In this document: piece by piece, positions 5,169-22,955 of the stretch
Numbering within the stretch: position 1 is the first letter of the stretch
Layout of the letters: every line of letters begins with the position of its first letter
Assembly: GCA_902516925.1 (NCBI GenBank)
Contig: CABYAF010000001.1
Span: 62,001-126,000, forward strand
DNA from: an uncultured Bacteroidota bacterium
GTDB lineage: Bacteria > Bacteroidota > Bacteroidia > Flavobacteriales > Flavobacteriaceae
Direction: 5' to 3'
Length of the DNA: 64,000 bases
The notes under the pieces: model-generated
Databases searched by the model: none
What the model was told of the DNA's origin: nothing
The model's input: the letters and a program-made list of their open reading frames with translations, nothing else
Translations under genes and position numbers: made by a program

Positions 5169-6214
5169 TAATCAATATTTTCTTTTATTTTTTCTGTACG
5201 CTTTGATATGTCAAATTTTGATATTATCCTATTCCTTGCTCGTTTTGACTCTTTTTCTCCTAGCTCTGATAACATAAAATCTTTAACGTGTGCTAAATCT
5301 TTTTCAGTGTCAAATAAAATTCCTGTATTTCCAATTATATCTGGAATGCCAAAAACTCTTGAGCCAATCGGGATGCATCCACATAACATAGCTTCACAAA
5401 CTGAATTTGGTAGTCCCTCTAATCGTGATCCCTGAAAATAAAATTTATGTTTTTGATAAAGGTGTTTCATTTGAGTTTTAGTTTGAATTCCAATTACTTT
5501 TATATTAGGACTTAAGTCTATGAAATCATCAATTTGAATTTTTGTTTCACCAACAATTGTAAAAAAGAATTCTGGGATTAAAGATGCTAATTTGTTGAAA
5601 ATCTTTAAACCCTTAATATTTATGACTCTTTCATCTGAAAAAAAGGCAGCTGTTAATACTCCAGTTTTTTCATCTTTCGTATCATAATTCCAAAATCTAG
5701 TATCATACCCTGTATTGATTTCCTTAATTAAAAGCTTTTTATTTTTGGAAAAATTTCTAACTCCTGATACAATATTAAACTTCTCATTAGCATAGCTACA
5801 TCCTTTTTCCAAAGATTTATGGACTACCCATATTTCACTAACTAAACTGTAGTTAATTTTTGCCAATATAGATCTAACCCCTTTTTTAAAGAAAAGACCA
5901 TGCCTGTACTTCTTATCTACTATAGCGTCATATCCTCCAACAACAATAACAGATTTTTTAAAAAAAAGCTTTGAAAAAAGAATAGGTATAAACGCATGAT
6001 AATCATTAAACCAAATAATTACTATTCTCGACCTAGAAACATAAGAAATTGACTTTATTTTTTCTTTTATCCTATTTATTACAAAAGATAAAATTGTTTT
6101 CTTTGGTGTGGATTGTATCTGAAAAACATTATAGTCCAAGGCCGCTAAAATTGAAATGTCAGATTTAACAAAACTTCTTTTAATAGTATAAACTATGGTT
6201 GCATTTTTTTTCAA
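5168..6214 (-). CDS. Glycosyltransferase family 4 (GT-B)
   Basis: A 348-aa GT-B fold enzyme. The nucleotide-sugar-binding half carries SRLEGLPNSVCEAMLCGCIP and then GIPDIIGNTGILFD (about residues 257-300), the usual E-x7-E pattern of GT4. The N-terminal half has basic, hydrophobic surface segments consistent with membrane association. The start is probably the TTG at 6214, giving a TTGA overlap with the GH3 stop codon. It acts with the neighbouring pyruvyl transferase in surface polysaccharide assembly; donor and acceptor cannot be read from sequence. Confidence 0.85.
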   Translation of the reverse strand: MKKNATIVYTIKRSFVKSDISILAALDYNVFQIQSTPKKTILSFVINRIKEKIKSISYVSRSRIVIIWFNDYHAFIPILFSKLFFKKSVIVVGGYDAIVDKKYRHGLFFKKGVRSILAKINYSLVSEIWVVHKSLEKGCSYANEKFNIVSGVRNFSKNKKLLIKEINTGYDTRFWNYDTKDEKTGVLTAAFFSDERVINIKGLKIFNKLASLIPEFFFTIVGETKIQIDDFIDLSPNIKVIGIQTKTQMKHLYQKHKFYFQGSRLEGLPNSVCEAMLCGCIPIGSRVFGIPDIIGNTGILFDTEKDLAHVKDFMLSELGEKESKRARNRIISKFDISKRTEKIKENID

Positions 6215-7704
6215 GAGTTAAAATCATTTAGTTTATCAGCAATTTTTCTATCATTTGAAAGTCTAGGAACTTTATTTTGCCCTCCTAATCTTCCAACTGA
6301 TTTCATATAATCATTAAACCCTCCTTTTTTAACTGAAATTACATCTAAAGGTTTTATTATTCCTCCATGAATTAGGTCTTTGTAATAAATGTTTTGATTA
6401 AGCATCTCAGCTTCTAAGGTTTTTGAAAAGATCTTTATATCCTCTGGCTGAGTTTCAAACTCTACATACCACTCATGGCAGGGAAGTCCATCTTTTGGAT
6501 TTATATTGGGTGCAACCGTAAACTCTCTTATTGATACATTATGATTATTTGTAGCAACCTTCATTGACTTTTCAACCTCCTCTGAAATAACATGTTCTCC
6601 AAATGCTGATAAAAAATGTTTAATTCTTCCTGATACAATTAATCTGTATGGTTTAGTTGAGGTAAATTTAACAGTATCCCCAATATTATAACCCCAAAGG
6701 CCTGCAGAGGTAGATATAATCAATAAGTAATTAACATTAACTTGTACGTCTTTTAATGTGATTCTTTCATATTTCCCTTTTAAGAAATCCTCAGCTTTAA
6801 TAAATTCATAAAATATATCGTTGTTCAACAATAATAGTAAGTCTGTTTTGTCATCAGTAAAATTATCTTGATAGCCGAAAAAACCCTCTGATGCTGGAAA
6901 AGTTGCTAATGTGTCAATCTTTTTTCCAAATAATTTATCAAACGTTGACTTATAAGGATCAAAGCTTACACCCCCATATACATATAGAGACAGGTCAGGA
7001 AAAACTTCCTTTATTGTTTTGTTTTCATTAGAAACGATCTTTTCGAAATACATTTGGACCCATGATGGTATTCCTGCAATAATTGTCATTTTTTCTCCAA
7101 CTGTTTCCTCAATTATGGTATCAACTTTTTTCTCCCAGTCCTCAATACAGTTTGTACTCCATGACGGTTTTCTATTATTTAAAAAAAGTTTTGGGATGTA
7201 GTGAGCGCTAATACCTGAAAGTCTACCAACAAAAACACCATTTTTTTTGTTAAGCTTGGGGCTTCCTTGTAAAAACATATGTTTTCCGTTTATTGGTCTG
7301 TAGTTTTTTGTTTTTAAAAAATAATTTAGAAGTGCATCTCGAGCTGAGTTAATATGTGTTCGAATTGATTCTTTTGTTATTGGTATATATTTTGCTCCTG
7401 ATGTAGTTCCACTTGTTTTAGCAAAATAAAGGGGTTGTCCTGGCCATAAGATGTTTTTTTTCCCTGCAATAACTCTATCAACATATGGTTTTAAAGCTTC
7501 ATAATCTCTAATTGGAACTTGATTTTGGAAATCCTTATAATTTTTTATGCTGGAAAAATTGTGATCCTTTCCAAACTCAGTGTTAATTGCTTTTTTTAAT
7601 AATTTATTAAAAGTTTCCGCTTGAAATTTTAATGGATTTGAAATCCATTTATTATTTCTTTTTTTAACTAGTCTAGCAAAAAGTATTGTTATTAAAGTTT
7701 TCAT
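6211..7704 (-). CDS. GH3-family acyl-adenylating enzyme-like protein
   Basis: A 497-aa protein of the GH3 auxin-responsive promoter family in the bacterial branch. The ATP-binding motif AKTSGTTSGAKYIPITKES lies near residue 93, a second conserved region FPASEGFFGYQ near 270, and the hinge region VSGRIKHFLSAFGEHV near 358. Plant members link amino acids to hormone carboxyls through an acyl-adenylate; the bacterial substrate is unknown, though many Bacteroidota carry one copy. It begins immediately after the M23 peptidase stop codon and overlaps the GT4 gene by 4 bp. Confidence 0.85.
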   Translation of the reverse strand: MKTLITILFARLVKKRNNKWISNPLKFQAETFNKLLKKAINTEFGKDHNFSSIKNYKDFQNQVPIRDYEALKPYVDRVIAGKKNILWPGQPLYFAKTSGTTSGAKYIPITKESIRTHINSARDALLNYFLKTKNYRPINGKHMFLQGSPKLNKKNGVFVGRLSGISAHYIPKLFLNNRKPSWSTNCIEDWEKKVDTIIEETVGEKMTIIAGIPSWVQMYFEKIVSNENKTIKEVFPDLSLYVYGGVSFDPYKSTFDKLFGKKIDTLATFPASEGFFGYQDNFTDDKTDLLLLLNNDIFYEFIKAEDFLKGKYERITLKDVQVNVNYLLIISTSAGLWGYNIGDTVKFTSTKPYRLIVSGRIKHFLSAFGEHVISEEVEKSMKVATNNHNVSIREFTVAPNINPKDGLPCHEWYVEFETQPEDIKIFSKTLEAEMLNQNIYYKDLIHGGIIKPLDVISVKKGGFNDYMKSVGRLGGQNKVPRLSNDRKIADKLNDFNS

Positions 7705-11044: not shown

Positions 11045-12142
11045 ATGAATTTAGATAGAATTTTAGGTCAAGGACATATTAAAAAAAGGATCTATGATTC
11101 AATTCAAAAAAAAAAATTTCCTCAATCAAAAATTCTTGTAGATAAAGATGGGTATGGTGGTTTGAATTTTGCTATTGAAATTGCAAGAGAGCTATTAAAT
11201 CAAAAAAACTCTTTTAGCGGAGACGTCTTAGATCATCCTGATTTACATTTTTCATTTCCTACTTTTGCATCCGTTAAGGACACTGAAACCCTTTATGCAG
11301 AGTGGATATCTTTTGTTAAACAATTTCCTTTCTCTGATTTTCAAAAGTGGTCAAGTTTTATTGGAAACACAACTTCTCAAGGTTCTATAAAGGTCTCTGA
11401 GGTAGATAAAATTCATAAGAAAGCAGTTCTTAAACCTTTTCTAGGGGGAAATAAAGTCTTTGTTTTATGGGGTTCTGAAACAATGATGCCTCAAACCTCT
11501 AATAAGCTTTTAAAAATATTAGAAGAACCGCCTAGTGACACATATTTTATTTTGATTACTAATAGTTTACAGGATCTTTTGCCTACAATAATATCAAGAT
11601 GTCAAATTTCAAACCTTGGACCTGTTGGCAATGAAGAGCACAAACAATATTTAGAAAGTTTAGTGAGTGGTGTTGACTATGATTTAATTGTAAAATCTTC
11701 AAGAGGAAGTGTTTCTAGTGCATTAAACTATACAGATGAAGACTCTTCTTCAATCTCTCATGAACAAAATTTTATTGATTGTTTAAGGTTTGCCTTTCTT
11801 GCAAAAAAAAGCAAAAAAGCTGTTTTAGATCTTACCAAATGGTCTGAAAAAATTTCTGCAAACTCTAGAGAGCAACAAAAAGAATTTCTAGGTTTTTGTT
11901 CCTTTCTTATCAGGGAAGCTATGCTTATAAGCTACAGATCTGAAAACCTAACTTCTTTTGTTTCAAGCTCAGATTTCAAAATAGGTAAGCTTTCTCCATT
12001 TGTTCACAGTAAAAATTTAATTGAAATAATTGACTTAATCGAGGAGTCGCATTACTCTATTTCAAGAAATGTTAATTCTAAAATTGTTTTCACTTCGTTT
12101 GCAATTAAAATGACAAAGCTTATTAATACTCCTGAAGGTTAA
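11045..12142 (+). CDS. holB: DNA polymerase III subunit delta prime
   Basis: A 365-aa AAA+ clamp-loader subunit. It begins MNLDRILGQGHIKKRIYDSI, the usual start of the family, and carries the sensor region LLKILEEPPSDTYFILITNS and the SRC motif (ISRCQ, near residue 194), which is diagnostic of clamp-loader subunits. The Walker A position is degenerate (VDKDGYGGLNF), as is normal for delta prime, which does not hydrolyse ATP. ATG 11045 is preferred to an in-frame TTG two codons earlier because it follows the promoter by the same short distance as other genes here. The end overlaps a convergent methyltransferase gene by 4 bp. Confidence 0.9.
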   Translation: MNLDRILGQGHIKKRIYDSIQKKKFPQSKILVDKDGYGGLNFAIEIARELLNQKNSFSGDVLDHPDLHFSFPTFASVKDTETLYAEWISFVKQFPFSDFQKWSSFIGNTTSQGSIKVSEVDKIHKKAVLKPFLGGNKVFVLWGSETMMPQTSNKLLKILEEPPSDTYFILITNSLQDLLPTIISRCQISNLGPVGNEEHKQYLESLVSGVDYDLIVKSSRGSVSSALNYTDEDSSSISHEQNFIDCLRFAFLAKKSKKAVLDLTKWSEKISANSREQQKEFLGFCSFLIREAMLISYRSENLTSFVSSSDFKIGKLSPFVHSKNLIEIIDLIEESHYSISRNVNSKIVFTSFAIKMTKLINTPEG

Positions 12143-12951
12143 TTTCTTTTAAAGACATAAAACGAGGAAGAGTATTTAGACGTAAAAAGCGCTAATATAT
12201 TTGATATAGAACCTATGACTAGTGCGCTGATCCAAGGAAAAATAGACCTTTTGTATTTCGACGAGAGATATGATACATAATAAGAATCCAGCCATAATGG
12301 GTGTTTAGATATTAAACTAAACCCTTTTTCTTTCATAAGATTTTCCAAAGAATTATGATTAAAATGATATAGATGTCTGGGGACATCCCAAGCTGCCCAA
12401 TGTTTTCCAAAAACTTTTGAATCAAAACTATCTCTATTTGGAACTGCTAAAACTAGAGCGCCGTTATGTTTTAAAGTTTTTCCTATTCTTATTATCGTCT
12501 TATTAATATCAGGGACATGCTCTAGAACATGCCACATCATAATCACATCATACTGGTTATCAGTTACTTGTGCGGTTTTTGATTTATTAATTATTGGATC
12601 ATATACCTGAACATTTATCTTCTTTTTTTTTAAAAATTTAGCAAAATATCCATCACCAGATCCATAATCTAAAATTTTATTTGATGGTTGTAGGATTTTA
12701 TGTAAAACTTTTAATTTATAGGAAAACATTATGTTTTGTGAATGCTTATAAAAAAAAGAGAAGACACCTTTCTTTTTATTGTGAGGAAGATAATTTTCAT
12801 TTTCATAGTATTTCTTGTGATTGTGATTTTCCGCTACCTCTGTCCAAACTAGATTAGTCTTATTATCAAGAAAAAGATTGAAGTGCTCCTTTGAAGCAAC
12901 ATAATCTTTTGTGCTTAATACCATTCTGTCTTTTTTGAGTAACTGTTTCAC
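12139..12951 (-). CDS. Class I SAM-dependent methyltransferase
   Basis: A 270-aa protein with the SAM-binding motif KILDYGSGDGYFAKFLKK near residue 93 and the post-motif VIMMWHVLEHVPDI near 136. This HVLEH pattern is typical of methyltransferases acting on small molecules or sugars, with a hydrophobic C-terminal segment. The substrate is unknown. The start codon is a GTG at 12951 that falls inside the parS-like palindrome 12944-12959. It follows mnmG by 9 bp on the same strand and ends in a 4-bp overlap with holB. Confidence 0.8.
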   Translation of the reverse strand: MKQLLKKDRMVLSTKDYVASKEHFNLFLDNKTNLVWTEVAENHNHKKYYENENYLPHNKKKGVFSFFYKHSQNIMFSYKLKVLHKILQPSNKILDYGSGDGYFAKFLKKKKINVQVYDPIINKSKTAQVTDNQYDVIMMWHVLEHVPDINKTIIRIGKTLKHNGALVLAVPNRDSFDSKVFGKHWAAWDVPRHLYHFNHNSLENLMKEKGFSLISKHPLWLDSYYVSYLSSKYKRSIFPWISALVIGSISNILALFTSKYSSSFYVFKRN

Positions 12952-12959
12952 GTGGAACT
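12944..12959. promoter_or_regulatory. parS-like ParB binding site 1
   Basis: TGTTTCACGTGGAACT. Its reverse complement AGTTCCACGTGAAACA matches the bacterial parS consensus TGTTNCACGTGAAACA at every position but the first. It covers the GTG start codon of the methyltransferase gene, just downstream of mnmG. A second site lies at 14840-14855. Confidence 0.75.
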
Positions 12960-12960
12960 T

Positions 12961-14832
12961 TTATCTACCCATCTTAACAAGCAGGACACTTATGTCGCTC
13001 GGATTTATTCCGCTAATTCTTGATGCTTGAGAAAGAGTGGATGGTCTAATTTTATTTAATTTTTCTTTTGCTTCATTAGATAACGAGGCTAAAGGATTAT
13101 AATCAAAATTATTTGGAATCTTAATGTCTTCTAGTCTTTGAAGTTTGTCAGCGTTTGCCTTCTCTTTTTCTATGTAACCTTTATATTTTATTTGAATCTC
13201 CGTCTGGTCTAAAACTTCATTGTCTAGTTTATTTGCCTGAATATAGTTTTCAACAGGGGCCAATTTTCTTATATCCTGCTGCTTAACATTAGGCCTTGAA
13301 TATATTTTATCTATTTTTCCTTTCTGTGGCACAGGTTCATAATTTACTGATTTTAAAATTTTATTAACCTCATCTAACTCAAAGCTTGTTTCATTAAGAA
13401 ACTTAACAAAGCCCTCTACTTCTACGTTTTTCTTTTTAACGCGGTTATATCTTTCCTCCTTTGCTAATCCAATTTTGTATGATTTCTCTGTTAATCGAAT
13501 ATCTGCGTTGTCTTGCCTAAGTAGAGTTCTGTATTCTGCTCGTGAAGTAAACATTCTATATGGCTCCTCTGTACCTTTTGTAATTAAATCATCAATCAAA
13601 ACACCAATATATGCTTCACTCCTTGTTAATATTAATGGTTCCTTTTCAAATACATTAGCAACAGCATTAATCCCTGCCATTAAACCTTGAGCTGCAGCTT
13701 CTTCGTAGCCTGTTGTACCATTAATCTGTCCAGCAAAAAATAAATTTTTTATCAACTTAGTTTCAAGAGTAAGAGTTAATTGAGTTGGTGGAAAATAATC
13801 ATACTCTATTGCATATCCTGGTCTAAAAAACTTAACATTTTCAAAACCTTTAATTTTTTTGATAGCAGCATATTGAACATCTTCTGGCATTGAAGTTGAA
13901 AAACCGTTGACATATACTTCGACAGTATTTTCTCCCTCTGGCTCGACAAATATTTGATGTCGGTCCTTTTCTGCAAACCTGTGTATTTTATCCTCTATTG
14001 AAGGGCAATACCTAGGGCCTGTACTACTTATGCTACCGTTAAACATGGGTGATCGATCAAAAGATTCTGACATAATATCATGAACCTCATTATTTGTATA
14101 AGTCATATGACAGCTTATCTGATCCTCAAGGGGTTGAATGCTCGCGAGGTAACTAAATTTGGCTGGGTTTTTATCTCCTGGTTGCTCCTCCATAACACTG
14201 TAATCTAATGATCTTCCGTCGACTCTTGGTGGGGTTCCTGTTTTCATTCTACCAGATTTAAACCCATAAGATTCAAGATCTGCAGTAATACCTACAGAAG
14301 ACTTTTCTCCAACCCTTCCTCCACCGAAATTTTTATCACCAACGTGTATTAATCCATTTAAAAATGTTCCATTTGTTAAAATAACAGAGTGAGAGTATAT
14401 TTTATTACCCAGGCCTGTAACCACTCCTTTTATTGTGTTTTTTTTTACAATTAAACCAACAACCATGTCCTGATAAAAATCAAGGTTTGGCGTATTCTCT
14501 AGCATCTCTCGCCATTTTAGCGCAAATTTAGCTCTATCTGACTGAACCCTTGGGCTCCACATTGCGGGTCCTTTTGATTTGTTCAGCATTTTAAACTGTA
14601 TGGCTGTTAAGTCTGAAACTACCCCACTGTAACCGCCAAGAGCGTCTATTTCTCGAACAATTTGACCCTTTGCAATGCCCCCCATTGCTGGATTACATGA
14701 CATCTGACCAATAGTTTGCAGATTCATTGTAACTAAAAGTGTTTTGGCGCCTAAGTTTGCAGCAGCAGCGGCAGCCTCTGCACCAGCATGACCTCCACCT
14801 ACAACAATAACATCATATTTAGATTCAAACAT
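12961..14832 (-). CDS. mnmG: tRNA uridine-5-carboxymethylaminomethyl(34) synthesis enzyme MnmG
   Basis: A 623-aa FAD protein that, with MnmE, installs cmnm5 on U34 of certain tRNAs. The N-terminal dinucleotide fold DVIVVGGGHAGAEAAAAA and the conserved SCNPAMGGIAKGQIVREID follow directly from ATG 14832. FFAGQINGTTGYEEAAAQG near residue 367 and the C-terminal tRNA-binding GidA domain are also present. The start overlaps the end of ybeY by 8 bp. An upstream in-frame extension exists, but it would run through the second parS-like site and lacks family similarity. mnmG is the classical origin-proximal gene gidA, relevant to the nearby strand switch. Confidence 0.96.
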   Translation of the reverse strand: MFESKYDVIVVGGGHAGAEAAAAAANLGAKTLLVTMNLQTIGQMSCNPAMGGIAKGQIVREIDALGGYSGVVSDLTAIQFKMLNKSKGPAMWSPRVQSDRAKFALKWREMLENTPNLDFYQDMVVGLIVKKNTIKGVVTGLGNKIYSHSVILTNGTFLNGLIHVGDKNFGGGRVGEKSSVGITADLESYGFKSGRMKTGTPPRVDGRSLDYSVMEEQPGDKNPAKFSYLASIQPLEDQISCHMTYTNNEVHDIMSESFDRSPMFNGSISSTGPRYCPSIEDKIHRFAEKDRHQIFVEPEGENTVEVYVNGFSTSMPEDVQYAAIKKIKGFENVKFFRPGYAIEYDYFPPTQLTLTLETKLIKNLFFAGQINGTTGYEEAAAQGLMAGINAVANVFEKEPLILTRSEAYIGVLIDDLITKGTEEPYRMFTSRAEYRTLLRQDNADIRLTEKSYKIGLAKEERYNRVKKKNVEVEGFVKFLNETSFELDEVNKILKSVNYEPVPQKGKIDKIYSRPNVKQQDIRKLAPVENYIQANKLDNEVLDQTEIQIKYKGYIEKEKANADKLQRLEDIKIPNNFDYNPLASLSNEAKEKLNKIRPSTLSQASRISGINPSDISVLLVKMGR

Positions 14833-15259
14833 CCTGATTAGTTTCACGTGAAACGGCAAATATAAACTCTTCTTCCATTTTACTCATAGCATACTTTTCA
14901 TTAGAAGTCTTATCTTTATATCCAAGACAATGGAAAAGGCCGTGGGAGACAAGTCTAATACACTCATTATCAACACTTTGGTTATATTTTTTAGCATTCT
15001 CTATCATCATTGACAGGGAGATATAAACTTCCGCAATAAGATTTTTTTCTTCAGAATAATCGAATGTAAGAATGTCGGTATGATTGTCATGATTTAGAAA
15101 ATCTACATTCAGAGCTCTCATAGCGTTTAAATCCACAAAATTATATTCAAGCTTTTCTATTTTAAAACCACTTTTGTTTGCAAAAAAAACAATAGTGTCC
15201 TCTAGAATCTTATTTTGAATTAGTTTATTTGAATATCCGATAAACTTAATCTTTTGCAT
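14825..15259 (-). CDS. ybeY: rRNA maturation RNase YbeY
   Basis: A 144-aa zinc endoribonuclease involved in 16S rRNA 3'-end maturation and ribosome quality control. The metal-binding motif is HGLFHCLGYKD near residue 105; the last ligand position, usually His (GYDH), reads KD-K here. LTFDYSE earlier in the protein matches the family's 'DVLSFP'-like strand. It has a TATATTTG box 7 nt before its ATG and overlaps mnmG. Coupling of ybeY with mnmG is common in flavobacteria. Confidence 0.88.
   Translation of the reverse strand: MQKIKFIGYSNKLIQNKILEDTIVFFANKSGFKIEKLEYNFVDLNAMRALNVDFLNHDNHTDILTFDYSEEKNLIAEVYISLSMMIENAKKYNQSVDNECIRLVSHGLFHCLGYKDKTSNEKYAMSKMEEEFIFAVSRETNQDV
14840..14855. promoter_or_regulatory. 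parS-like ParB binding site 2
   Basis: The 14-bp core GTTTCACGTGAAAC (14841-14854) is a perfect palindrome and equals the inner 14 bases of the canonical parS site. It lies inside the last codons of ybeY, just upstream of the mnmG start, 1.9 kb from the first site. Confidence 0.8.
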
Positions 15260-19878: not shown

Positions 19879-19949
19879 GGCATTGTGGCCGAGTGGCTAG
19901 GCGGAGCTCTGCAAAAGCTTTTACAGCGGTTCGAATCCGCTCGATGCCT
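19879..19949 (+). tRNA. tRNA-Cys (GCA)
   Basis: Folds into a complete cloverleaf. The acceptor stem is GGCATTG with CGATGCC (one T-G pair), the D stem GCC/GGC, the anticodon stem GAGCT/AGCTT, and the anticodon loop CTGCAAA gives GCA. The T stem is AGCGG/CCGCT with loop TTCGAAT. The discriminator base is T, as required for tRNA-Cys. CCA is not encoded. Its last base is also the last base of the convergent rnr stop codon. Confidence 0.95.
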
Positions 19950-22099
19950 CAAGCAAGGACTTGAAAGTCAAGCCTTTTCTTTATTTGATCTGCTTTAATT
20001 AGCATGACCCTGGTTTTGTCTCCTAGCTGATATTTCTTGCCTGTTCTTTCTCCAACAAACCTGTGGTTTTTTTGATCGTGTACAAAAAAATCCCCCGGCA
20101 AATCTTTTGCTTTGACAAGCCCCTCACATTTATTTTCAACAACCTCAACAAAAATCCCTCTTGCTATTACTCCTGAGATGACTGCATCAAAAGTCTTTCC
20201 TTCTTTATCTTTCATGAACTTTATTTGCATAAGTTTTATAGAGTCTCTTTCTGCTTTCGTTGCTAGAATTTCCATGTGTGTTGAATGCTTACACAGGCTT
20301 TCTGTTTCCTCTGTTTTTATTTTTTCCCCCTCTATCTCTGCCTGAATTAACCTATGAACCATTACGTCAGGATACCTTCTAATTGGTGATGTAAAATGGG
20401 TGTAGTTCTCAAAAGACAACCCGTAGTGACCTATGTTTTTTGTTGTATATTCTGCCTTGCTCATACTTCTAATCATAAGTGTGTCTATTAAGTTTTGTTC
20501 GTTTTTGCCAAATGCGTTTTTTAAAAGGGTATTAAGTGAATCGTTTAATTCTTTTGAGGTTAACTTTAGGTTATAACCCATTCTTTTCACTACGGTTTGT
20601 AGGTTTTTTAACTTCTCCTGGTCTGGTTGATCATGAACCCTATAAACGAAGCGCTCTTTACCTTTTCTCATTTTTTCTGCTACTTTTTTATTTGCAAGCA
20701 ACATAAACTCTTCGATTAGTTTGTTTGAGCTTTTTGTTGTTTTGAAAACTATATTTTCTGGTTGGTTTTTCTTGTCCAACTCAAATTTTATCTCTGTCTT
20801 ATCAAAAATTAAAGCACCGTTATTTATTCTTTTTTTTCTTATTGTTTTTGCCATGCTGTTAAGCGTTGTTATGGCCTCAACCGTTTTCTTTGTTACCGTT
20901 TTATCTTTTTTTAATATTGTGTGTTCTTTTGGAATCTTTATTTCGCCTGTTTCAATAATGTGCTGTGCCTCTTCGTATGATAGTCTTACGTCAGATTCTG
21001 TAATTGTTTTTCCAAACCACTCTTCTTTAATGTCTCCGTTTTTATTCATTATAAACACGGCTGAAAAGGTGAGTTTTTCTTCGTTTGGTCTCAGGGAACA
21101 AAGGTTGTTAGAGAGTGTTTCAGGTAGCATGGGTATTACTCTGTCTACTAAATAAACAGATGTTGCTCTGTTTTGGGCCTCGTCATCTATCTTTGTTCCC
21201 TGCCTTACATAGTGTGAAACATCTGCAATATGAACTCCCACCTCATATTTGTTTTCTTCTATTTTTTTAAATGATATTGCATCATCAAAATCTTTAGCGT
21301 CTACAGGATCTATTGTAAAGGTTAACTCTCCCCTCATATCCCTTCTTTTTTTTATCTCTTCTTTTGTTATTGCTGGTGAAATTTTTTGCGCCTCCTCTTC
21401 TACTTTTTCTTCAAACTCTGTAGACAAGCCATATTCATATAGTATTGAATAAGCATCTAATGAATCGTCTCCAAACCCGAAGCTTTTAATTATTTTTCCT
21501 TCTGGTGAGTTTTTTGGTGAATCCCAGGATTTTATCTCAACCGCTACTTTTTCTCCTTCCTGATAATCCTTCATTTCTTCTTTATCTATAAAAAAGTCAG
21601 TATACATTCTTGCGTTTCTTGTGTTTACAAAAGCATATTCTTTGTTTTTTTGAAAAACTCCAACAAACACATCTTTTTTTCTTTCAATTATTTCTAAAAT
21701 TTTTCCTTCGTATTTATTTTTGTTTTTTCTTTCTCCAACAGCAACATAAACAATATCTCCATGGAGACCTTTGTTCAGGTTTCTTTGCTCAACCAAGACG
21801 TCCGCGTCTAATTCTTCACACACAACATACCCTCTTCCAGTACTTGTAATTTCTAAAACACCTTCTGCTGTGTTTGATTGAATACCTGGTGCAACAAATT
21901 TCCCTTTATTAGTTTTTATTATCTGCTGGTTTTTTAGAAGCTTATTTAATATTTTAATTATGTCGTTTCTTCCTTTTGTATCGTTTACACCCAGAGAGAA
22001 AGCAATTTGTTTATAGTTAAACTCCTTGTTGGGTTTGTTTCCAATAAATGACTTTATCTTTCTTTCTAATCCCTTTAAATCCTTCTTTTTCTTTGACAT
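19949..22099 (-). CDS. rnr: Ribonuclease R
   Basis: A 716-aa 3'-5' exoribonuclease of the RNase II superfamily that degrades structured RNA. It has an N-terminal helix-turn-helix-like region and cold-shock domains (about 1-240), then the RNB catalytic domain starting near FTIDPVDAKDFDDAISF (residue 265), whose clustered Asp residues bind the metal. Further on are FTSPIRRYPDVMVHRLIQ and a C-terminal S1 domain (ISGVIARGIFVEVVENKCEG). It is transcribed away from the 421-bp gene-free stretch at 22100-22520. Confidence 0.95.
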   Translation of the reverse strand: MSKKKKDLKGLERKIKSFIGNKPNKEFNYKQIAFSLGVNDTKGRNDIIKILNKLLKNQQIIKTNKGKFVAPGIQSNTAEGVLEITSTGRGYVVCEELDADVLVEQRNLNKGLHGDIVYVAVGERKNKNKYEGKILEIIERKKDVFVGVFQKNKEYAFVNTRNARMYTDFFIDKEEMKDYQEGEKVAVEIKSWDSPKNSPEGKIIKSFGFGDDSLDAYSILYEYGLSTEFEEKVEEEAQKISPAITKEEIKKRRDMRGELTFTIDPVDAKDFDDAISFKKIEENKYEVGVHIADVSHYVRQGTKIDDEAQNRATSVYLVDRVIPMLPETLSNNLCSLRPNEEKLTFSAVFIMNKNGDIKEEWFGKTITESDVRLSYEEAQHIIETGEIKIPKEHTILKKDKTVTKKTVEAITTLNSMAKTIRKKRINNGALIFDKTEIKFELDKKNQPENIVFKTTKSSNKLIEEFMLLANKKVAEKMRKGKERFVYRVHDQPDQEKLKNLQTVVKRMGYNLKLTSKELNDSLNTLLKNAFGKNEQNLIDTLMIRSMSKAEYTTKNIGHYGLSFENYTHFTSPIRRYPDVMVHRLIQAEIEGEKIKTEETESLCKHSTHMEILATKAERDSIKLMQIKFMKDKEGKTFDAVISGVIARGIFVEVVENKCEGLVKAKDLPGDFFVHDQKNHRFVGERTGKKYQLGDKTRVMLIKADQIKKRLDFQVLA

Positions 22100-22520
22100 T
22101 TATATTTTTTTTAAATCTCAAAGATACTGTTATTAAAAGCTAGATTAATTTTATTATCAATAAACATTTAAACATATTAATAATAAGTATTTATAAAAAT
22201 TAAATGAATATTATATGTGTTGTTAATTTCTTCATAAATAGTTTGAAAAACAACAACAATTAACACAGAAATGAAAAAACTAACAAACAATAAACAATGC
22301 AAAATATTGATTTACAAACAACAAGTAACGAAGTAAACAGTTGTTAACAAGTGTAAAAACAACAGAAAGGTTAACAACTAATACAAACAAAACCCAAGAA
22401 AAAGAGTTAGTAAAAGAAAAGAAATGTTTAGAAAAAAAAAAAAAGAAGAATTATTAAGAATAAACAAACAACTATTAACAACATATAAAGAAATAATAAA
22501 GGAATTACTAAATTGAAAAA
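22100..22520. other. Gene-free region with strand-composition switch (replication origin or terminus candidate)
   Basis: The only stretch over 300 bp without a gene. Up to about 22240 the plus strand is T-rich. From there to rpiB it is rich in A and C and poor in T and G. The same change is seen in third codon positions of genes on either side. The motif TTAACAAC recurs: minus strand 22219-22226, plus strand 22371-22378 and 22475-22482, and a perfect TTGTTAACAA palindrome at 22341-22350. No exact TTATCCACA DnaA box is present. On the minus strand 22166-22177 reads ATATGTTTAAAT, a loose match to the right half of dif. An A-run at 22432-22444 precedes rpiB. Confidence 0.6.
22119..22126 (-). promoter_or_regulatory. 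-7 promoter box of rnr
   Basis: TATCTTTG on the minus strand ends 19 nt before the rnr ATG, with an A-rich leader in between. Confidence 0.5.
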
Positions 22521-22955
22521 ATGAAAATAGCAATAGGTAACGATCATGCTGGTGTTGAGGTAAAAAGAAAAATAGAGAGCTACCTTTCTCAGAAAGGACA
22601 CGTGGTTATCAACAAAGGATATGATGGAAAAGAAAGCGTAGATTATCCAGACTTTATACACCCCGTATCAATAGAAGTAAAGGAAAAAAAAGTACAAATT
22701 GGAATAATAATTTGTGGAAGCGGAAACGGGGCAGCAATGACAGCCAACAAACACAAAGGAATAAGAGCGGCAATATGCTGGAATGAGGAAATTGCTGAAC
22801 TTGCAAGACATCACAACGACGCAAACATAATTAGCATACCATCTCGTTTTTTATCAGAAGAAGAGATAATAAACATAGTAGAGGTTTTTATAAAAACAAG
22901 CTTTCAAGGAGGAAGGCACAAAAGAAGAATAGATAAAATTGATGGAAATGATTGA
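22521..22955 (+). CDS. rpiB: Ribose-5-phosphate isomerase B
   Basis: A 144-aa enzyme of the RpiB/LacAB family interconverting ribose 5-phosphate and ribulose 5-phosphate. The N-terminus IAIGNDHAGVEVKRKI, the catalytic Cys 65 in IIICGSGNGAAMTANK, and the GRHKRRIDKI C-terminus that binds phosphate are all present. Third codon positions are strongly A-biased (30 A, 15 T, 10 C and 5 G in the first 60 codons after ATG), opposite to the minus-strand genes that follow. The 3' end overlaps the GNAT gene. Confidence 0.94.
   Translation: MKIAIGNDHAGVEVKRKIESYLSQKGHVVINKGYDGKESVDYPDFIHPVSIEVKEKKVQIGIIICGSGNGAAMTANKHKGIRAAICWNEEIAELARHHNDANIISIPSRFLSEEEIINIVEVFIKTSFQGGRHKRRIDKIDGND

Follow-up and report, generated by a model that had tools for sequence, protein, structure and literature searches.

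A very probable parS centromere pair at the two ends of mnmG, close to a probable replication origin, in an uncultured Flavobacteriaceae bacterium

In model species it is established for chromosomal ParABS systems that ParB loads as clamps in a cytidine triphosphate (CTP)-dependent manner and spreads along the DNA, and that ParA drives segregation. Here we describe two 16-bp palindromes that bracket the gene mnmG in a 64,000-nucleotide stretch of DNA (the window) from an uncultured Bacteroidota bacterium of the family Flavobacteriaceae (GenBank assembly GCA_902516925.1, contig CABYAF010000001.1, positions 62,001 to 126,000, forward strand), and we propose with high confidence, on the strength of genome comparisons, that they are the parS sites of a chromosomal ParABS system whose replication origin most likely lies in the gap between rnr and rpiB. 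The locus resembles the chromosomal ParABS systems of Bacillus, Caulobacter and Pseudomonas in its 16-bp parS palindrome, in the adjacency of parA and parB, and in the position of the sites near a probable origin; unlike them, it has two sites at fixed gene ends, parB lies far from parS in the relatives measured, and neither Smc over its cut-off nor ScpA was found in the genomes searched. An earlier description of a parS pair at mnmG was not found in the accessible parts of the open-access literature searched, outside which falls Livny et al. 2007, a study that reportedly mapped parS across bacteria.

Two further sets of organisms offer close parallels. A Hi-C study of gut bacteria, Bacteroides caecimuris and other strains including two Bacteroidetes, reports in its accessible portions that parS clusters mark origins that need not hold dnaA, and that the two Bacteroidetes studied have no known condensin; a pair of sites at mnmG is not described in those portions (PMC10197239). 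In Mariniflexile, the oriC called by Ori-Finder adjoins mnmG and dnaA did not align with the guanine-cytosine (GC) skew, according to the accessible part of that report, in which a figure legend labels oriC and ter opposite to the text (PMC11278836), and in Algorimicrobium oriC was likewise placed at mnmG by Ori-Finder in what is accessible of that account (PMC12843772). The present locus shares with both an origin placed at mnmG, and differs from them in that the change of skew can be assigned to the rnr-rpiB gap or the region around it and parS is found at mnmG; as far as the two papers are accessible, 'pars' in them stands for parsimony.

The two sites are the following.

12944..12959, no strand assigned: putative parS site 1, TGTTTCACGTGGAACT, directly 3′ of the mnmG stop codon, supplying the GTG start of a methyltransferase frame
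14840..14855, no strand assigned: putative parS site 2, AGTTTCACGTGAAACG, directly 5′ of the mnmG ATG, within the last ybeY codons

A sequence-only reading of the window had proposed parS-like sites at exactly these positions, and the sequences were confirmed at both. Each differs by two mismatches from the 16-mer TGTTTCACGTGAAACA, and both match 12 of the 12 specified bases of the parS palindrome core GTTNCACGTGNAAC. The assembly comprises 991,672 bases in 33 contigs and is 63% complete. It contains the exact core twice, each time at an end of mnmG, and a reversed control pattern not at all; the scatter of matches over the genome that would have spoken against parS is thus not seen for exact cores. 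One-mismatch cores occur at two places elsewhere (C3:291 and C16:7949). When up to two mismatches to the core were allowed, 33 places were found versus 14 for the reversed control, and therefore this threshold, which the sequence-only reading had proposed for a longer pattern, is too loose to be informative with GTTNCACGTGNAAC.

The arrangement recurs in most relatives examined. The exact core is present in 68 of 80 related genomes (own genome included), with exactly two copies in 51 and none in 12, and the control pattern was matched in 2 of the 80. Within the genus (25 genomes), the 19 genomes with MnmG are the same 19 that carry exactly two exact sites; among the six without MnmG, five have no exact site and the sixth (G007) has a single one, next to ybeY and 29 bp short of a contig end. 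Of 40 genomes searched, 34 yielded MnmG, and 30 of these 34 loci were examined: none of the 30 is without a site at no more than one mismatch and 27 have sites at both ends, the deviating loci being L071 and L073, with one site each, and L072, with two sites on one side. A broader set of 80 named MnmG loci, including Bizionia, Winogradskyella, Flavobacterium, Tenacibaculum, Polaribacter and Chryseobacterium, comprises the closest 80 of at least 589 relatives in a species-level collection and leans to close kin; these names suggest a marine member of Flavobacteriaceae and point to Flavobacteriales as the order. Here a site stands at both mnmG ends in 73 loci (65 with exact cores), in the upstream zone (-300 to +60) in 77 (74 exact) and in the downstream zone in 73 (67 exact). 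These loci hold 186 exact cores, 167 of them within the mnmG-end zones (57 kb in total) and none at a distance of over 1.5 kb from the gene; outside the zones there are 28 cores with one mismatch, and two control patterns gave no exact match. The gene neighbours are kept as well: of the 80 loci, 76 have a match to ybeY and 73 one to the methyltransferase. In some loci the exact cores form arrays around mnmG, six to eight in four Flavobacterium loci and nine in one Terrimonas locus (L201, L202, L204, L206 and L256).

At the level of the phylum, 184 of 198 genomes have the exact core and 26 match the control. Other orders of the class contributed 18 loci among the matches listed (at least 30 loci), and 12 of the 18 have their sites next to mnmG, 11 of the 12 with ybeY on the other side. 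Therefore, the ybeY-mnmG address of parS seems to predate the second site, that at the mnmG 3′ end, and this second site, we infer, is characteristic of the order to which the organism belongs.

The genes at and between the sites are the following.

12961..14832, minus strand: mnmG (gidA), flanked by the two sites; TIGR00136, 853 bits, cut-off 525
14825..15259, minus strand: ybeY, TIGR00043 over cut-off, with codons GTT TCA CGT GAA within site 2
12139..12951, minus strand: class I methyltransferase, PF13489, 91.5 bits; the frame opens at the GTG inside site 1

Both sites overlap coding sequence, just as had been described earlier: site 2 encodes V-S-R-E-(T) close to the ybeY end, 7 bases from the mnmG ATG, and site 1 covers the methyltransferase start. 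Such an overlap, together with the weak in-window statistics (in the 64-kb window by itself, 6 of 100 shuffles reach at least two matches at up to three mismatches), could mean that the palindromes reflect nothing but coding constraint or chance. However, in the 19 same-genus loci the four ybeY codons of the core show zero synonymous changes, whereas in the next codon, whose last base lies just outside the core, threonine is always encoded and the synonymous codons change freely (ACT 7, ACG 1, ACC 3, ACA 8); the codon following it is variable, being a stop in 4 of the 19. Moreover, the sites of genome G050 are intergenic and still at the mnmG ends, and the 65 loci with exact cores at both ends argue in the same direction. 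Coding constraint or chance is therefore an exceedingly improbable explanation, and the codon pattern indicates that site 2 is constrained as DNA, not as protein.

At site 1, the methyltransferase frame read from the GTG is open across the 20 codons read in all 19 same-genus loci. One aspartate, encoded by GAC or GAT, is invariant, and in 12 of the 19 loci no ATG occurs among these codons. The open frame and the lack of ATG make the GTG start within site 1 credible, as was originally suggested. In other families the alignment to the methyltransferase protein mostly starts near residue 11-12, so that this GTG start may be peculiar to the genus. Elsewhere in the window, a 497-aa frame at 6211-7704 presumably resembles GH3-type acyl-adenylating enzymes.

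The genome also encodes the proteins expected to act on such sites. One ParB_N match (E 1.5e-30) was found on contig 10, with a ParA-like gene directly adjacent, although this ParA passes no NCBIfam cut-off among the 25 models listed; ParB was found in 15 of 15 genomes. Proximity of parB to parS, which is typical of ParABS and not defining, is not seen, the own parB lying on another contig than the sites and parB of G018, G038, G047, G050 and G061 lying about 0.4-1.2 Mb from parS. The identity of this ParB bears on whether the sites could instead bind a Noc-like protein or an unrelated CACGTG-binding protein, for which its highest NCBIfam score, to the Noc model TIGR04285 (205 bits), and a Noc-like lysine at the residue 184 equivalent might be taken to speak. 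Yet this score is below the Noc cut-off of 315, whereas the ParB model TIGR00180 scores 153 bits over a cut-off of 58, and the core of the two sites is the parS core and differs from the Noc site, ATTTCCCGGGAAAT. In alignment with solved ParB and Noc sequences, the residues equivalent to 173 and 201 are arginine and glycine, as in ParB, and not glutamine and arginine, as in Noc, and those equivalent to 179 and 184 are tyrosine and lysine. The numbering is a mapping onto the text of PMC7383237, in the accessible part of which R173 and G201 contact parS and are absolutely conserved in ParB orthologs and residues 179 and 184 vary. In the ParB loci read (own and 13 further genomes, G061 left out), the R173 equivalent is kept in 14 of 14 and the G201 equivalent in 13 of 14. 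A Noc-like or unrelated binder is thus very unlikely. The proposed parS identity finds support in the same two places being occupied in most relatives examined, in the parA-parB pair of the genome, where absence of parB would have spoken against it, and in the ParB-type specificity residues; the pair of marks at the mnmG ends is very probably a bacterial centromere.

The sites were further compared with the position of the origin, for which the following features are needed.

22100..22520, no strand assigned: AT-rich rnr-rpiB gap, probable origin, 7.2-9.6 kb from the parS pair, with a T-A skew flip
19949..22099, minus strand: rnr (RNase R), left of the gap; TIGR02063 over cut-off
22521..22955, plus strand: rpiB, right of the gap; TIGR01120 over cut-off

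The strand-corrected T-A skew at third codon positions shows its largest drop in the own contig exactly at the rnr-rpiB gap (84,099/84,521, in the window 22,099/22,521), and in G018, of the same genus, the largest drop of the 222-520 kb part falls at the same gap (457,616/458,024); in each of four runs the drop was matched by none of 2000 gene permutations. Strand-corrected skew fits, based on 20 sampled stretches per genome at a step of 5% of the chromosome, were made for five genomes, and in four of them the fitted origin lies close to parS, at 0.7% (G050), 2.2% (G047), 2.7% (G038) and 4.7% (G061) of the chromosome; bootstrap draws fell within 5% of parS in 98%, 95% and 99% of cases for G050, G047 and G038, respectively. 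Two genomes allow the change to be placed more closely. In G050, almost every gene up to 1,457,226 has a negative GC skew at its third codon positions, and from rpiB (1,457,804) onward the skew is positive, so that the sign change spans a 577-bp gap upstream of rpiB, about 20 kb from parS (beyond the gap five short frames were read, and the next sampled stretches are positive too). In G038, the sign change falls in the 909-919 kb interval, which includes the rnr-rpiB gap (911 kb); parS is found at 932-934 kb. The distance from rpiB to the nearest parS is 7.7-42.5 kb in 12 of 14 genomes, and in G041 rpiB is on another contig. With parS taken as the origin, the share of coding sequence co-directional with replication is 0.486 in G047, 0.521 in G061, 0.554 in G038 and 0.635 in G050.

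The sequence-only reading had held that the parS pair bears on whether the switch at 22.2 kb is an origin, and this connection stands: given the T-A drop at the gap in the own contig and in G018 and the sign changes near rpiB, the 22.2 kb switch is very probably the replication origin, with the parS pair 7.2-9.6 kb away. It could be argued that the sites are parS and that the origin lies at dnaA, far from them, since in four complete genomes 24-50% of the chromosome separates dnaA from parS (no dnaA was found in the own genome, which is incomplete). However, the skew fits place the origin near parS in those four genomes, 21-47% of the chromosome from dnaA (G050, G047, G038 and G061), and the G050 sign change at the rpiB gap is 20 kb from parS. 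The accessible portions of PMC11278836 and PMC12843772, where Ori-Finder and GC skew place oriC at mnmG, the former with dnaA off the skew, also oppose a dnaA origin, which we consider highly improbable.

Within the gap itself, which has divergent flanking genes, repeated GTTAACAAC/TATTAACA-like words were seen by eye, and the layout is similar in L180, L198, L210, L228, L231 and L247; possibly these words are a lineage-specific initiator box. The rpiB gene of G018 (L292, C1:457169-457602) is in three pieces, one with two internal TGA codons, indicating a broken gene or a sequencing error.

Several observations weigh against parS sites at mnmG beside an origin in the gap. As to the sites, three of the 80 named loci have none (L253, L258 and L259), five genomes with MnmG lack the exact core (G053, G058, G063, G070 and G074), and six of the 18 class-level loci have no mnmG match within the 3-kb locus or 1.5 kb of parS. 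As to the origin, neither at parS nor at 22.2 kb does the raw GC skew of the own contig flip, and in the own genus the strand-corrected GC skew at third codon positions offers no flip that could be used at either parS or the gap, so that the T-A skew is the sole informative skew there. For G018 (two contigs, weak GC skew), the GC fit disagrees with those of the other four genomes, lying 15% from parS, and for G061 only 54% of bootstrap draws fell within 5% of parS. In G050 alone is parS the best of all positions for coding direction, and in G059 rpiB is 419 kb from parS. Boxes of the E. coli type were not clearly enriched in the 62 of the 80 named loci scanned for DnaA boxes with the E. coli consensus TTATCCACA; the distribution was roughly flat except for a higher bin at +5.5 kb with 25 loose matches (the others mostly 5-17), and this result was not used. 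Finally, the ParB of G059 (L307) has alanine at the G201 position. The alanine, the distant rpiB and the two sites on one side of mnmG are combined in this one genome, G059 (L072, L288 and L307).

An alternative is that the sites serve as operators for the control of ybeY, mnmG and the methyltransferase gene by ParB or some other factor, with segregation secondary; this might be suggested by the 7-base distance of site 2 from the mnmG start, by the methyltransferase start codon held in site 1 and by the wide conservation of the mnmG address. In G047, however, mnmG lies at 1,277 kb (C1:1277027), 280 kb away, and three parS sites are still found at 997-999 kb, where they surround the methyltransferase gene close to the fitted origin (941 kb). 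As the sites stayed while mnmG moved, this single genome argues both against mnmG regulation being the chief function of the sites and against mnmG being required between them. The arrays of other loci, and distances varying up to hundreds of bp, likewise speak against operators, and we regard this explanation as improbable. In the same G047 region (L344, C1:994000-1006000), the rnr end is 3 kb from parS and rpiB about 43 kb away. Thus mnmG itself seems not essential to the arrangement, on the example of one genome, and we propose that the sites belong with the origin region and not with mnmG, the mnmG bracket being an inherited address.

Based on these findings, we propose the following course of events for this chromosome. 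First, the one ParB of the genome, whose gene lies beside that of ParA and away from the sites, would bind both sites, load as CTP-dependent sliding clamps and spread across the ybeY-mnmG-methyltransferase stretch. Second, ParA would move the resulting complex, so that newly replicated origin regions, with replication presumably firing from the nearby gap, would be segregated early. In evolutionary order, an older parS cluster between ybeY and mnmG, as in other orders of the class, may have been followed by the second site at the mnmG 3′ end in this one.

One step known from other ParABS systems, the loading of Smc-ScpAB by ParB, is probably missing here. In ten genomes (G000, G018, G022, G023, G038, G047, G048, G050, G059 and G061, seven of them at least 90% complete), all with ParB, no Smc was found over its cut-off of 567, weak fragments of at most 32 bits being present in all ten, and no ScpA was found; the search controls were over cut-off in 10 and 9 of 14. 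A ParB-Smc loading platform was thus not found among these genomes by searches aimed at Smc and ScpA, MksBEF-type condensins being outside the search. The result agrees with what the accessible portions of PMC10197239 report for its two Bacteroidetes. It is conceivable, though doubtful, that in Flavobacteriales the constant distance of about 1.9 kb is itself of importance, in that two ParB loading points would frame a gene-sized domain and a partition complex would be built without Smc-ScpAB, with another condensin or none.

In conclusion, these are ordinary ParABS centromere sites whose two-site arrangement is unusually fixed. As a minimal natural two-site centromere in genomes in which Smc-ScpA was not found, the pair provides a setting for the role of ParB-parS without that loader. 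It also marks the origin region by a short sequence in a large group of ecological importance for which dnaA is a misleading guide, and coverage-based growth-rate estimates and the start points of circular genomes could be better anchored by the parS pair.

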